From: a virus
Length of the DNA: 30,113 nt
Direction: 5' to 3' (one strand)
IMG/VR virus record: IMGVR_UViG_3300032516_000124
Span: 1-30,113 of that record
Position 1 is the first letter of the stretch; every line of letters starts with the position of its first letter. Positions 11,755 to 28,921 of this stretch are shown piece by piece. The position numbers were made by a program, and so were the translations under genes. The notes below the pieces were generated by a model. That model ran no database searches and was not told the origin of the DNA. It saw only the letters and a list, made by a program, of their open reading frames with translations.

Positions 11755-12564
11755 TTAAAAGATGTATCCTGCTTGAATTTTCATTTCTCGCTTGATTCGT
11801 CGGGTTGCGAGAGCACAATATTTCTCGTCAATGTCGAAACCAATACACTTTCGGTCGACTCTAAACGCTGATACCATTGTTGATCCGCTGCCCAGAAATG
11901 GATCGAGTACGGTGTCTCCAACGAACGATAGCAGTTTGATACATCGCCTTGGTAGTTCGAGCGGGAACGGCGCTGGATGGCCAAGTCTGACCCGGTCTTC
12001 ACAGTGCATTTTCCAGACACAATCAGACCACTGGACAAATTCATCCTTCGTGATGTCCATCCGCTTGCCGTCGGTATCTTCACGTTTCCAGTCACCTTTA
12101 CTTGCAATGATTATACTTTCCGCTGGCGGAATAATTAATGGTGCCTTTGCAGACATCCATGTACCCCACGATACACGTGGTACGTTGCCCTTGGTCCATA
12201 CGGCAGTAGTATAGTGATTGTACCCAATTTTCTTCATCAAACCGACAAGATCGGCATAAACAGTGTGTTTGCCACCTTTTGCTGTTTCAAACGGCACGTT
12301 CACGCAAATTCGACCATGGTTCTTGAGCCAATCGTAACAGTTTGACAACCACAACCAACTGAATTCCATGTACCCGTCGTAGTTGATCGCATCGTCGTGA
12401 TCACCGTATTCGATACCAACGTTATACGGTGGGCTGGTAACCACAAGGTCAACGGTGCTATCTAATCCATGAGCATCCGCTTCGGTTTCAGTACAGCTAC
12501 CGTGAACGATTCTTACCCTATCGGTCTTGAAGAAATCAGCATTAGTTGATTCTTGCATTGTCAT
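11755..12564 (-). CDS. DNA methyltransferase, beta-class N6-adenine/N4-cytosine type
   Basis: 269 residues. Transfers methyl groups from S-adenosylmethionine to an exocyclic amino group in DNA. The catalytic motif TSPPYNVG (residues 43-50) comes before the SAM-binding motif DPFLGSGST near the C-terminus, the order of the beta class. SPPY fits N4-cytosine enzymes but also some adenine enzymes, so the base is uncertain. No restriction nuclease is next to it, so self-protection or regulation is more likely than a restriction system. The start overlaps the upstream stop as ATGA. Confidence 0.9.
   Translation of the reverse strand: MTMQESTNADFFKTDRVRIVHGSCTETEADAHGLDSTVDLVVTSPPYNVGIEYGDHDDAINYDGYMEFSWLWLSNCYDWLKNHGRICVNVPFETAKGGKHTVYADLVGLMKKIGYNHYTTAVWTKGNVPRVSWGTWMSAKAPLIIPPAESIIIASKGDWKREDTDGKRMDITKDEFVQWSDCVWKMHCEDRVRLGHPAPFPLELPRRCIKLLSFVGDTVLDPFLGSGSTMVSAFRVDRKCIGFDIDEKYCALATRRIKREMKIQAGYIF
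12110..12119 (-). promoter_or_regulatory. AAAGTATAAT element inside the methyltransferase gene
   Basis: A perfect ten-base copy in coding sequence (codons for E-S-I-I). The next three bases (CAT) also match the copy before dnaB. It could drive the distal part of the operon, or be chance. Confidence 0.3.
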
Positions 12565-12880: not shown

Positions 12881-12953
12881 TCTGGGTGGCGGGACTTGAA
12901 CCCACGACCTATGGACCCAAGACCATTGCTCCGCCAAACTGAGCCACACCCAG
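12881..12953 (-). tRNA. tRNA-Pro (UGG), unusual anticodon arm
   Basis: 73 bases. Acceptor stem CTGGGTG/CACCCAG, D arm GCTC/GAGC, T arm GTGGG-TTCAAGT-CCCGC and discriminator A are all canonical. The anticodon arm ATGG-TCTTGGGT-CCAT has four pairs around an 8-base loop; the alternative is a T-T mismatch closing a 6-base loop. The anticodon within CTTGGG is most likely UGG. CCA is not encoded. First of three clustered tRNAs. Confidence 0.8.
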
Positions 12954-12963
12954 TTTTAATATA

Positions 12964-13043
12964 TGGCCAAGGTGGGATTCGAACCCACGTGCTTTCGCGT
13001 CGGCTTTTAAGGCCGGTGTGTATGCCAGTTCCACCACTTGGCC
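12964..13043 (-). tRNA. tRNA-Leu (UAA)
   Basis: 80 bases, class II. Acceptor GGCCAAG/CTTGGCC, anticodon arm CCGGC-CTTAAAA-GCCGA (one C-A mismatch at the base), a variable arm with a GAAA loop, and T arm GTGGG-TTCGAAT-CCCAC. Anticodon UAA. CCA is not encoded. Confidence 0.92.
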
Positions 13044-13048
13044 CATAA

Positions 13049-13121
13049 TTGACCCGGTTGGACTCGAAACAACAGTCTTGCGATTATAAGTCGCATGCTC
13101 TACCTATTGAGCTACAGGTCA
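13049..13121 (-). tRNA. tRNA-Ile (UAU)
   Basis: 73 bases. Acceptor TGACCTG/CGGGTCA, D arm GCTC-AATAGGTA-GAGC, anticodon arm TGCGA-CTTATAA-TCGCA. Anticodon UAU reads AUA, a codon often rare in hosts. The T arm GTTGT-TTCGAGT-CCAAC has T at position 53, which breaks the normally invariant G53-C61 pair. The recurrent AAAGTATAAT element ends about ten bases upstream. Confidence 0.85.
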
Positions 13122-13131
13122 GTGCCAACTT

Positions 13132-13141
13132 ATTATACTTT
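13132..13141 (-). promoter_or_regulatory. AAAGTATAAT element before the tRNA cluster
   Basis: A perfect copy that overlaps the last two codons and TAA of the SLOG-domain gene. Its TATAAT ends ten bases before the 5' end of tRNA-Ile, well placed to transcribe the three tRNAs and the genes beyond. Confidence 0.6.
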
Positions 13142-22019: not shown

Positions 22020-22162
22020 AGTTTACTCCCTCTGATCTTTATTCGATGATTTTTCTGGTATCTTTTTCGTCTGGTTGCACGAACCTTCCTTCTGCAGCCA
22101 TCACAAAGTATTCTGTTGCCATAAACCGAGTTATTGCAGTCTCTACATTTCTTTTGTTTCAT
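22016..22162 (-). CDS. Small zinc-ribbon-type protein, 48 residues; first gene of the left arm
   Basis: Two C-x2-C pairs (KCRDCNNS and LCDGCRRK) form a classic single zinc ribbon, followed by a strongly basic tail (ATRRKRYQKNHRIKIRGSK) suited to nucleic-acid binding. As the first gene after the control region it could be an early regulator, an inference only. There is no Shine-Dalgarno; TATAAT ends seven bases before the ATG. Confidence 0.65.
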   Translation of the reverse strand: MKQKKCRDCNNSVYGNRILCDGCRRKVRATRRKRYQKNHRIKIRGSKL

Positions 22163-22169
22163 ATAAGTA

Positions 22170-22179
22170 ATTATACTCA
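22170..22179 (-). promoter_or_regulatory. Promoter-like TGAGTATAAT before the first left-arm gene
   Basis: Minus strand TGAGTATAAT then TACTTAT and ATG 22162: same spacing as at dnaB. Eight of ten bases match the recurrent element. Confidence 0.5.
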
Positions 22180-22196
22180 AAGGTGGTCCACAGCAC

Positions 22197-22306
22197 ACCC
22201 GGACTACCTAGTATAAGGGGACATACCCGGACCATAGGAGGGGACATACCCGGACTACCTAGTATGAGGGGACATACCCGGACCATAGGAGGGGACATAC
22301 CCGGAC
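22197..22306 (+). repeat. Iterated direct repeats (iteron-like)
   Basis: ACCCGGAC occurs five times at 22197, 22225, 22248, 22276 and 22299, so spacings alternate 28, 23, 28, 23. Four of these are within GGGGACATACCCGGAC. The full period is 51 bases, with alternating spacers TACCTAGTATRAG and CATAGGA. Such phased repeats are usual for initiator binding at origins, or for regulator binding. Confidence 0.9.
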
Positions 22307-22499
22307 TACCTGCTTGTAAGAAAAGAAAGCGTTCTCTCTCCTCCCTCTCCCCTTAAAAACCCCTTTCCTTCCTTTTTTTCGAAAGAAAAGAAAAATAGTA
22401 TTTTGTAACACACCGCTCGTATTTAGACAGGCAGCAAGTAATGGTAACACCGAAAAGACTTTTGTCATACAGCTACTCAATGATATCTTCATAAATTGT

Positions 22500-22534
22500 G
22501 TGGGGCGGAAGATTCGAAAGTTCTTCCGCCCCAC
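22500..22534. repeat. 13-bp perfect hairpin
   Basis: GTGGGGCGGAAGA and its exact complement TCTTCCGCCCCAC flank a 9-base loop. Very stable. Neither side is followed by a T run, so it is not a standard intrinsic terminator, but it could end or protect the minus-strand RNA proposed here. Confidence 0.85.
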
Positions 22535-22576
22535 GTGCACTGAACGGGGTGGGCCCAGAATGACTGTCTGTGGTAT

Positions 22577-22728
22577 GTGAAGATCCGTAGTACAACTCGC
22601 GATTATCGCCGTCGGCTTAAGATTACAACACTGCGTTTACCCGTCACAACAGGTCGGTGGCACGGTAGTGCTATGTGAATGCCAAAAGGCTAGCACGTTC
22701 TACCCTGGGCGGCACTACGGATCTTCAC
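22577..22728 (-). ncRNA. Candidate structured RNA or DNA element, 152 bases
   Basis: Closed by a perfect 15-bp inverted repeat (GTGAAGATCCGTAGT at 22577-22591; complement at 22714-22728). Inside are a hairpin (GGTA and GTGCTA paired with TAGCAC and TACC, tip GCC-AAAA-GGC) and a small GCGA-TTA-TCGC stem, so a multibranched fold is possible. No ORF explains it. The strand is assigned from the upstream minus-strand element at 22841-22850 and the wobble pairs of the neighbouring stem. I know no family that matches. Confidence 0.45.
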
Positions 22729-22768
22729 TTATCAAAGAAAACAGGTTTTGATTTCAATACTAAGAGCT

Positions 22769-22834
22769 GATGGGTTGAATTCCCCTGTGTCCGGGTTTCG
22801 TTTACCCCGGTGTCGGGCTGGAATCCAACCCACC
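22769..22834 (-). repeat. Long stem-loop with G-U pairs on the minus strand
   Basis: Minus strand GGTGGGTTGGATTCC pairs with GGAATTCAACCCATC over 15 positions, two being G-U. On the plus strand those two are A-C mismatches. An inner CCGGG/CCCGG stem caps it. It begins about six bases after a TATAAT element. Confidence 0.7.
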
Positions 22835-22840
22835 GATAAT

Positions 22841-22850
22841 ATTATACTTC
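22841..22850 (-). promoter_or_regulatory. GAAGTATAAT element before the stem-loops
   Basis: Nine of ten matches to the recurrent element; it would start minus-strand RNA at about 22834, the first base of the stem-loop. Confidence 0.45.
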
Positions 22851-22922
22851 AGTGAGATGCTAGACGTTGTTTTGTGGGTTAAACATTAACACCCCCGATA
22901 CTTTTGTTTTCGTTCTGCAGGC

Positions 22923-22932
22923 ATTATACTTT
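22923..22932 (-). promoter_or_regulatory. AAAGTATAAT element in the control region
   Basis: Perfect copy for minus-strand transcription, about 80 bases upstream of the second copy. An ATG overlaps its last base but opens a frame of only 12 codons, so it more likely serves leftward transcription in general. Confidence 0.45.
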
Positions 22933-23036
22933 GTTGACCCACCAAGAATACCCACCGGTTGGTAATTCTGTTTTTACGTCTTTTTGTGTGGATAACAGTG
23001 TTATGAACCGATAAGACTTGTTTGGACGGAAATCTT

Positions 23037-25277
23037 ATGGCACTAGGCAACCCCTTCAAGCTCCTACAAAAACTCGAACGTAAGCCCCCGATGGTCAGTG
23101 CAAACGTCATCAAGGGGCACCTCACAGACGAAGATAAGAAGCTCCTGCAGTCTATAGGCATCTCCGCGGGTCAACTATTCGAAAGAATGCATGCGGACGT
23201 TGCCGTAAACTACGACCGAGCCCGATTTTACAACGAGATTACCCGGGCTGTGGATCACTGGATGATCGGCCCTGCTGTCGAGCTCTACGCTGACTATTCC
23301 ACCAACTTTTCTGCTTTACACAATGCGAGCGTCTGGGTCACGTCTGAAAACCCCACCTACCAACGAGTCCTCACGAAGATGCTTGACGACATTGGGATCG
23401 AGGAGAAGATATTTGACTGGGCTTGGAACACGGGTGCATTTGGCGATTTGTTCGTAAGGATTAACGGGATGCCCGGGATTGGTATCGTAAGTATCAATGA
23501 CGACGAGCACCCCATCAACATGAGTCGTGTAGACCATAACGGTTGTCTTATTGGGTTCTTTGAAACACCCCAGGGCGAGGCACAGGGGTCTCCGTCCAAC
23601 CTCATCCCGCCCTGGGACGTTGTTCACTTCCGGACCTTGGGTGCTAAGCGTAAGCGCCCCCAGTTCGGTGATCCAACTTACTGTCTTCGGGGGAACACCA
23701 AAGTTCATCTCCTTGACGGAACTGAACCAACCATCGCGGAAATGGCTGAAAAGCCTGAATGGTACGTTGGTAAAAGTGTTTGGAGTGTTAACCCGGGAAC
23801 GTTGAAATTAGAACCGGATAAAATCGTAGACGTTAAGAAAACCCGTATTGGTGCTGAATTGGTTCGGGTTCACCTAGATAATGACCAATGGGTGGACACC
23901 ACCCCGGACCATCGGTTTATGCTCCGTGGTGGGTCATATAAGGCTGCGGGAATGCTTCAACCCGGCGATAGTTTAATGCCACTGAAAGAAGTGCTTCTGT
24001 TGAATCATAAGGTAATACAAGTGGAAATACTTGAGGAAAGAGATGACACCTACGACTTGATGACGGAGAAGAACCATAACTTTCCTCTCTCCTGTGGTGT
24101 GTTTGTTCATAATAGCGAATTCCGTGCCTCGTATCTGATGACCGGTGCAGATAGTAAGCAGGTTACGTCCCGGTACGGCACCAGCATTATTATCAACAGC
24201 CTTGCGGCGTATAAACGTCTGCGGCTGGCTGAGGATAGTCTTTTGATGGCCCGGTTGACTCGCGGGGTCATTCGATACGTTTGGAAGCTTAAGGTCGACA
24301 GCAATAACCAAGAAAGCGTCAACGAGCTGATGTCGCAGCTTGTGGGTATGCTTAAGAAGGCCCGGGCGCTGGATACCAGTCCGGGGTCTCCGAATTTCGA
24401 TAGTAAGTTCGGTCCCCTGTCTGCCGTAGAAGATCTTTTGATTCCGGTGTGGGGCGATACCGGCGATCTCACTTACGACAAAATCGGTGGAGAGGTTGAC
24501 ATTCGGTGGATCGTTGACATTGAAGAACTCCGGAATCAGCTCGCGTGTACACTGCGGGTTCCTCTGTCGGTATTGGGTGGGTACATTCAAGAAGCGTCTG
24601 GTTCGTTGGGTGCCCAAGCCATCGAGAAACTGAGTATAGAGTTTGCCCATACTGCAAGGCGTCTGCAGAGGGCGATAAAAACAGGCATCAAGCGTATGTG
24701 TCAAGTTCATTTGGCTTACTTGAACATGGACCCAGATCCACGGTTGTTTGACGTGTGTATGACCGAAACCAGTACCGCCGAGGAAGAGACCATTAAAGAG
24801 ACCCTTGATACGGGTGTTGATGTGATTCAGAAGATGATGGACGCAGCGGAGGCCGCTGATGAGAACGTTGATAAGGTGAAGATCTTCAATTATCTGAACA
24901 AGAAGATTCTAAAGCTCGACGACTTCGATTTGAACGACTTCATGAAGACCACCCCTAAGCTGGAGGCTGGAATGGCTGGGGTAGAGCCCGGTGCAGAAGG
25001 TATGGAACCCTCTATCGATCAGATGAAGTCGGATCTTGAGAACGCAGAGGAACTTAAAGGTGAGGCTGGTCCGCCGGAAAAGGTGCCAGAATCGCGACGT
25101 AAGTTGGTTGAGGTTAAGGGAAACGATGGGGAGTACGTTAAAGTAGGCAACCCTGATTTGGTTAGTTATCTTCCGATCACTGAGAACTGCGGTGGTATTG
25201 GTAGGGCCTTCAATGGTCGGTGGCGGCAGGACTGGATAGACACTTGGCAGGACGTGAAGATAAAGGTAGAGAAATGA
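23037..25277 (+). CDS. Portal protein (T4 gp20-like) containing an intein
   Basis: 746 residues before splicing, about 602 after. Forms the dodecameric ring at the head vertex through which DNA is packaged. Matches to gp20-type portals: FGDPTY...SEFRASYLM, LAAYKRLRLAEDSLLMARLTRGVIRYVWKL, DIRWIVDIEELRNQLACTLRVPLSVLGG. Residues 216-359 are an intein. The C-terminal region is acidic and flexible. I chose ATG 23037; a TTG five codons earlier is possible. Its TGA overlaps the next ATG as ATGA. First gene of the rightward arm. Confidence 0.92.
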   Translation: MALGNPFKLLQKLERKPPMVSANVIKGHLTDEDKKLLQSIGISAGQLFERMHADVAVNYDRARFYNEITRAVDHWMIGPAVELYADYSTNFSALHNASVWVTSENPTYQRVLTKMLDDIGIEEKIFDWAWNTGAFGDLFVRINGMPGIGIVSINDDEHPINMSRVDHNGCLIGFFETPQGEAQGSPSNLIPPWDVVHFRTLGAKRKRPQFGDPTYCLRGNTKVHLLDGTEPTIAEMAEKPEWYVGKSVWSVNPGTLKLEPDKIVDVKKTRIGAELVRVHLDNDQWVDTTPDHRFMLRGGSYKAAGMLQPGDSLMPLKEVLLLNHKVIQVEILEERDDTYDLMTEKNHNFPLSCGVFVHNSEFRASYLMTGADSKQVTSRYGTSIIINSLAAYKRLRLAEDSLLMARLTRGVIRYVWKLKVDSNNQESVNELMSQLVGMLKKARALDTSPGSPNFDSKFGPLSAVEDLLIPVWGDTGDLTYDKIGGEVDIRWIVDIEELRNQLACTLRVPLSVLGGYIQEASGSLGAQAIEKLSIEFAHTARRLQRAIKTGIKRMCQVHLAYLNMDPDPRLFDVCMTETSTAEEETIKETLDTGVDVIQKMMDAAEAADENVDKVKIFNYLNKKILKLDDFDLNDFMKTTPKLEAGMAGVEPGAEGMEPSIDQMKSDLENAEELKGEAGPPEKVPESRRKLVEVKGNDGEYVKVGNPDLVSYLPITENCGGIGRAFNGRWRQDWIDTWQDVKIKVEK
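23682..24113 (+). other. Mini-intein of 144 residues in the portal gene
   Basis: Splices itself out of the portal. Block A CLRGNTKVHLLDGT begins with Cys1; block B TPDHRFML has the TxxH histidine; block F is DDTYDLMTEKNHNF; block G ends GVFVHN, followed by Ser as first residue of the C-extein. The penultimate His and terminal Asn are intact, so it should be active. There is no room for a homing endonuclease domain between blocks B and F. Insertion is between DPTY and SEFR, in a conserved part of the portal. Confidence 0.95.
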
Positions 25278-27743: not shown

Positions 27744-28841
27744 GTGAATGACCTGCTCGATAGATTGTTTGAGGTAACTAAACGTAAAAAGGGTGAGTCT
27801 CTGCCGGAACCGCAGCGGATTTTCTATAATTACGTATCAAAGCTGGGTAAAGAGTACACAAGCCCTGATTCGATCGTGGAACACGAATCGTTTTTCTGGG
27901 TTTTATCCGATGGTACGACGGTCTTTTCTGGCTCTGGTGGTGGGTTGCATCACGCGGACGGTGCTCGAATTGCGGGCACTAAGATGCACGAAATGATGCA
28001 CACTGGTGCTCTTCGTGGAACATTTTTTGATGATCTTGGTATCGAGGTTAACAAAGGTACCAAAATCAGCATGGAACAGGTTACCGCGGTTCAGTATCTA
28101 ATCGAAAAGTCCGGTAAGGATTTGATCATCGACGTTTTCGAAGGAGGATTGGAAGCTAAAGAGGCATTCGTTGCATGGTACTACATTGATAGACCGGTAA
28201 GCAACGATCTGTTGTACGAGATTCTAAATGGTAGTGGAAAAGTGAAGGACTTTCAGAAAACCATGCAAGAAATTATGGATATCGATCGAGAAGTGATCGA
28301 GGGTCGGATTCTGGAAACTACGAAATCACAGCAAACGAACTTTACCCAGGCTGAATGGGAAAAATCTATAACCCCAGAAGAAAAGGCGGCTATTGAGTAT
28401 TACTCTGAGACGATGGAAACCAGCGATGCGGTTCGGAGCGGTAAGTCTCCCCATTCAAAGCCTTTCTTTGCTGCCATTAATCGAGCACCAAAATATCGGG
28501 GCGTAGTGTACAGGGGCCAGTATCTTCATGATTCATCCGCAATAAATATGATGACGAAGGTTGGTAGTGAGTTTACGTTTAGCCACGATGGAAAGCCTTC
28601 CGCTGGTTCTAAATCTCATGCAATAGCGGAGGAGTTTATCGATGATTTTGAGGGGCAGACTGCTGCTGTTTTTACAATAGAGATTCGAACTGGCGTCGAT
28701 ATTTCCAATTTGGTACTTGACGAGTACAAACGTCAAGAAGAAGTCATAATTAGATCAAACACAAAGTTCAAAGTTGTGAGTGCAAAGTGGAAGCGGACAC
28801 CATCAATGAGATGGTGGGTTGTGTCCGTCAAAGAAATATGA
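27744..28841 (+). CDS. ADP-ribosyltransferase with leader motif
   Basis: 365 residues from GTG 27744 (AGGAG eight bases upstream). Leader MNDLLDRLFEVTKRKKGE, then the shared domain (WVLSDGT at 52-58; SMEQ at 109-112; LIIDV). The C-terminal 130 residues have the mono-ADP-ribosyltransferase signature: VYRG with Arg257, the S-containing strand AGSKSHAIAEEF (Ser289/291), and RQEEVII with Glu333 and Gln331, a QxE version of the ExE turn. It would transfer ADP-ribose from NAD to a host protein. T4 Alt is a packaged and injected enzyme of this kind, so injection is a reasonable inference. Confidence 0.85.
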   Translation: MNDLLDRLFEVTKRKKGESLPEPQRIFYNYVSKLGKEYTSPDSIVEHESFFWVLSDGTTVFSGSGGGLHHADGARIAGTKMHEMMHTGALRGTFFDDLGIEVNKGTKISMEQVTAVQYLIEKSGKDLIIDVFEGGLEAKEAFVAWYYIDRPVSNDLLYEILNGSGKVKDFQKTMQEIMDIDREVIEGRILETTKSQQTNFTQAEWEKSITPEEKAAIEYYSETMETSDAVRSGKSPHSKPFFAAINRAPKYRGVVYRGQYLHDSSAINMMTKVGSEFTFSHDGKPSAGSKSHAIAEEFIDDFEGQTAAVFTIEIRTGVDISNLVLDEYKRQEEVIIRSNTKFKVVSAKWKRTPSMRWWVVSVKEI

Positions 28842-28921
28842 AAGATCTTCTTGAAAGACTGCTGGAAATCCGCAGTTGGGCCACCAAGGTAAACGCCATT
28901 CAAAGGGGAGAAAATGGTTGA
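28838..28921 (+). CDS. 27-residue stand-alone leader peptide
   Basis: ATG at 28838 overlaps the ADP-ribosyltransferase stop as ATGA. The peptide starts MKDLLERLLEIRS, the same motif as the larger neighbours, then WATKVNAIQRGENG and stops. Codons differ from those of the other copies while the residues match, which argues for selection on the peptide. The end overlaps the next gene by eight bases and contains its AAAGGGGAG ribosome site. Confidence 0.65.
   Translation: MKDLLERLLEIRSWATKVNAIQRGENG

Follow-up and report, generated by a model that had tools for sequence, protein, structure and literature searches.

A candidate structured RNA at the early/late gene boundary of an uncultured phage with a T4-type portal

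Bacteriophage T4 encodes stable small RNAs, RNA C and RNA D, together with its tRNA clusters. The T4 origins are situated where the direction of transcription and the base bias switch, and they combine a promoter with an unwinding element (PMC3016281). The minimal origins span approximately 100 bp and their unwinding element is A+T-rich (PMC3016281). A hairpin-rich, non-coding stretch at the early/late boundary of an uncultured phage shares features with both kinds of system, and is considered here as a possible structured RNA.

The window, by which we mean the whole stretch of DNA analysed, is the 30,113-base IMG/VR virus record IMGVR_UViG_3300032516_000124. Its leftward genes run from approximately 22198 down to 1000 and encode a family-A DNA polymerase, a clamp-loader-like ATPase, a DnaB-type helicase, a Snf2-type helicase and an initiator-like protein with a helix-turn-helix domain, along with three tRNAs, for one of which (12881–12953, minus strand) ARAGORN reports an anticodon of two bases only. 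The rightward genes begin with the portal gene (ATG at 23037), whose product matches Portal_T4 and holds an intein at ca. 23690–24110; in the relatives L003–L006 the portal matches are broken at several points, and the intein stretch of the window matches more than once in L006. Farther on, the minus strand shows a strong local fold at 28721–28880 (z −5.8, 30 shuffles), opposite a late gene. The candidate stretch lies in the spacer before the rightward genes, where the GC skew switches sign and its cumulative minimum falls (22–23 kb), and no open reading frame of at least 50 amino acids is present between 22541 and 22885. Tandem direct repeats (22197–22311; a 51-nt unit in 2.3 copies, with four 21-nt GGGGACATACCCGGAC cores) separate the stretch from the first early gene and form a possible protein-binding array; the repeat pair at 22212–22306 has no match in sequenced genomes.

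The spacer stands out by its folding. The two strongest perfect inverted repeats in the 30 kb, of 13 and 15 bp, both fall within this non-coding stretch of 350 bases, and the 340-base segment at 22496 has the lowest z among all 136 such segments, ranking first on both strands. Folding of the whole 351 bases yields z −6.5 (minus) and −5.0 (plus). When the window was shuffled 300 times with dinucleotides preserved, a 13-bp hairpin of equal span appeared in 3 shuffles and a 15-bp repeat of equal span in 2. Caution on this rarity comes from a relative, L036, in which a perfect 15-bp repeat lies inside a protein gene that we take, by eye, to be queE; given that coding location, the L036 repeat was discarded as a homologue.

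The initial annotation had placed a TATAAT element at 22841–22850, heading a leftward transcript. The minus strand indeed carries AAGTATAAT at 22841–22849, the −10 element of a putative promoter, and the distribution of the motif adds weight: all eight exact copies in the window are on the minus strand and, with one mismatch allowed, 19 copies are found against 6.6 expected, 18 of which are again on the minus. Exact copies ending at 22849, 22931, 18768, 13140, 9691 and 9466 are at or adjoin gene junctions, the one at 13140 directly preceding the tRNA array, and those at 12118 and 4674 are within genes. The second, upstream copy of the spacer (22923–22931, minus) is an exact match to the motif. 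Between these two leftward promoters lies the palindrome GTTAAACATTAAC (22878–22890), the sole instance of its pattern in the window and a possible operator. No −35 element is evident. In three window genes (9689, 18766 and 22176, all minus) an ATG stands exactly 7 bases past TATAAT, which suggests that these are leaderless mRNAs in this phage; GTATAAT is found upstream of genes in relatives too, where the excess of ATG at offset 7 is not clear. From this spacing the start of the candidate RNA is put at 22833–22834, the first bases of stem 1.

Stem 1 (22769–22834, minus; arms 22820–22834 and 22769–22783) is a 15-bp helix that holds an inner CCGGG/CCCGG stem. Both G-U pairs described for it on the minus strand are confirmed, and its folding favours that strand, with z −5.35 as minus-strand RNA versus −2.70 as plus. 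The same spot admits a coding explanation, in which stem 1 is part of a tiny leaderless gene of 33 codons (22833–22732, minus). Its frame is open throughout, and its GTG start falls exactly 7 nt past TATAAT, the distance seen for the ATG of three other window genes; against this, the frame has no PHROG and no phage match and does not resemble the small frame of the relative G020, and a strong stem sits at its start codon. We regard such a gene as exceedingly improbable.

Stem 2 is a perfect 15-bp helix with arms at 22577–22591 and 22714–22728, closing a 152-base unit (22577–22728, minus). Inner hairpins had also been proposed for this unit, but the folding of its 122-base interior (22592–22713) does not exceed that of shuffles (z +0.35 on the minus strand, +0.92 on the plus), so that the closing helix stands and the hairpins within it are unsupported. 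Wobble pairs, offered as an indicator of strand, serve for stem 1; the outer extension of stem 2, however, gains G-U on the plus strand, and wobble pairs thus leave the overall strand unfixed. The arm pair has no further copy in the window or in IMG/VR. The arms were also considered as terminal repeats of a small inverted-repeat transposable element and rejected, the flanks (GGTAT and TTATC) showing no target-site duplication.

Stem 3 (22500–22534, minus) is a perfect 13-bp GC-rich hairpin with a 9-nt loop, folding about equally on either strand (z −7.35 minus, −7.62 plus), and putatively the 3′ end or a stabilising hairpin of the RNA. The hairpin itself is as first described; the 3′-end function is unsupported. 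No U-tract or T-run follows it (the adjoining sequence is CACAAUUUAUG on the minus strand and GTGCACTG on the plus), it is absent from the terminator scan list, and it does not qualify as an intrinsic terminator, which would pair a GC-rich hairpin with a U-tract. Its arms recur between genes in phage L044, which has no proteins in common with the window and gave the sole hairpin match in the homology searches. A weak likeness to tRNA-Met in G015 rested on TTCGAAT and was rejected.

The recurrence of the stem 3 arms in L044, the 15-bp repeat inside a protein gene of L036 and the unstructured interior of stem 2 would all fit hairpins that are unrelated to one another, for instance chance repeats or barriers separating leftward from rightward transcription, with no single functional unit. 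Such a reading is very unlikely in our view, as each perfect repeat has a chance of about 1% in the whole window, the two are at most 230 bases apart, and a cluster of helices occupies the matching spot in G020.

No known RNA family was recognised at the outset, and searches with family models agree. At the gathering threshold Rfam 15 finds only three tRNAs in the whole window (12881–13121), and at permissive thresholds the best matches across 22150–23050 are at chance level. Neither ARAGORN nor Rfam detects a tRNA-like domain in the candidate, and its identification as a tRNA or tmRNA was rejected. Searches of IMG/VR, of phages (cultured ones included) and of plasmids gave no alignable homologue. 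A search for antisense targets gave a best z of −3.5 among 117 tests, which is not convincing.

Relatives were sought through the portal, whose alignment scan of IMG/VR gave 39 loci. Only one near relative, L045/G020, spans the site (portal 73–80% identical); a scan of IMG/VR for the portal N-terminus found no near relative besides G020, and no portal relative was confirmed in genome contigs. G020 has the same divergent gene layout as the window. It carries AAGTATAAT twice in 68 kb, once at the matching spot and orientation, followed by approximately 320 bases with four helices; the G020 element is placed at contig positions 67483–67830. From the promoter onwards the helices have z −1.0, −5.1, −2.9 and −3.2 as the RNA strand, against −2.4, −4.4, −4.5 and −3.7 as its complement, three of the four folding slightly better on the non-RNA strand. 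Among the top-ranked G020 segments listed, none has a lower folding energy than this spot, and by z it ranks lowest on one strand and eighth on the other. Beyond short words and the promoter itself, no sequence can be aligned between the two spacers, and selection on the candidate at the RNA level is unsupported. One such word, TAGTCCGGG, occurs three times in the control region of the window, also within the tandem repeats at 22197–22311, and twice in that of G020, and nowhere else in either record; the evidence from it is weak, since it was chosen post hoc.

A more distant relative, G010 (portal 55%, helicase 61%), has a tRNA-like RNA in the same portal-early spacer (L035:12326–12462, or 12338–12456 on a narrower delimitation), beginning 7 bases after GTATAAT. 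Its closing helix is of 17 bases and 88% complementary, and it has D- and T-arms, with a single long arm replacing the anticodon and variable arms. Rfam scores it as tRNA-Sec at 29.7 bits (E 5e-4), below the gathering score of 47, and ARAGORN misses it. In L058 the promoter motif is present without strong structure, and in most of the remaining portal relatives the upstream genes run rightward.

Taken together, an early leftward structured RNA, either free or a leader, is the tentative reading that we prefer, with a confidence slightly short of even. Its basis is a promoter of the phage's own class, a stem that begins at the predicted +1 and favours the minus strand, the lack of a long open reading frame, the helix cluster in G020 and the fact that the stretch is the most foldable of the record; the tRNA-like RNA that follows a promoter in this spacer of G010 also counts in its favour. 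The promoter-led non-coding RNA of about 330 bases first proposed is partly upheld and persists as the best-supported reading. Counted against it are the lack of sequence homology with the G020 spacer beyond promoter and short words, the strand preference of the G020 helices, the unfolded interior of stem 2, the missing −35 element and U-tract, and L058.

The main alternative is a role at the DNA level, conceivable given the origin-like context and the near-equal folding of most stems on the two strands. Under such an explanation the stretch is a replication origin or control region, its inverted repeats acting as cruciforms or protein sites; the polypurine tract downstream and the iteron-like repeats would complete the origin and, in one variant, the leftward transcript would merely prime replication as at T4 oriF. 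The cumulative GC-skew minimum at 22–23 kb, the tandem repeats at 22197–22311, the near-equal foldability of most stems in both the window and G020, and an initiator-like gene ca. 2.4 kb away that holds no iterons of its own are consistent with this, as is the fact that T4 origins, with their promoter and unwinding element, lie where the direction of transcription changes together with base bias (PMC3016281). However, a change of gene direction alone would also yield the skew flip, stem 1 folds better as RNA of the minus strand, and the G020 spacer shows no apparent polypurine or A+T-rich tract. We consider an origin or control region somewhat unlikely; if the stretch does act as DNA, it marks the probable replication origin of this group.

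The transcript may alternatively run on into the leftward genes and serve the early operon as a structured 5′ leader, with hairpins that control read-through, stability or translation. The shared direction of transcription with the early genes and the lack of a U-tract after stem 3 to stop transcription point this way, as does G020, where the last helix ends in TTTTC and adjoins the AGGAG and ATG of the first gene. In the window, on the other hand, the next gene is 340 bases further on and has its own TATAAT-7-ATG start, with the tandem repeats intervening, and a leader of this kind appears unlikely.

For the preferred leftward RNA, we infer transcription, both ends, stability and any partner as follows. 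A GTATAAT-type promoter of the phage itself, at the divergence of leftward early and rightward late transcription, would give rise to a transcript of approximately 335 nt. RNA polymerase would start about 7 nt past the −10 element, placing stem 1 at the 5′ end or one base from it, with the GC hairpin at or near the 3′ end, so that both ends may be shielded from exonucleases. Stem 2 would then display its largely unpaired, flexible interior of 122 nt as the active part, to which a protein or a further RNA could bind. The transcript could accumulate free or constitute the front portion of the leader of the early operon. More speculatively, and with a probability that we place low, the locus may represent a new class of phage early RNA, defined by a promoter-led slot reserved for it where early and late genes diverge. 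Sequence and fold would here turn over fast while the slot, the promoter and long closing helices persist, each phage having its own fold: the window with three helices, G020 with four and G010 with a tRNA-like structure. If transcribed, the candidate would be an unclassified phage RNA at the early/late switch in uncultured phages with T4-gp20-type portals, and the tRNA-like RNA that a relative carries in this slot would open the function of such RNAs to testing.

Compared with the described systems, the candidate resembles T4 RNA C and RNA D in being phage-encoded, non-coding and structured, and it shares its promoter class with the tRNA array of the window; it differs from them in place and size, and the Rfam scan gave no homology to them. 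Its combination of a promoter with a location at the switch of transcription and skew is that of an oriF-type, transcription-primed origin. Like T4 oriF and oriG, it has a plain −10 in its putative promoter, a switch of transcription and base bias and a non-coding leader (PMC3016281), whereas its downstream stretch is GC-rich and hairpin-rich, unlike theirs. The tRNA-like RNA of G010 differs in its tRNA D- and T-arms, the window element being without a tRNA match, but the two have in common the spacer between portal and early genes, the 7-nt promoter spacing and a long closing helix.
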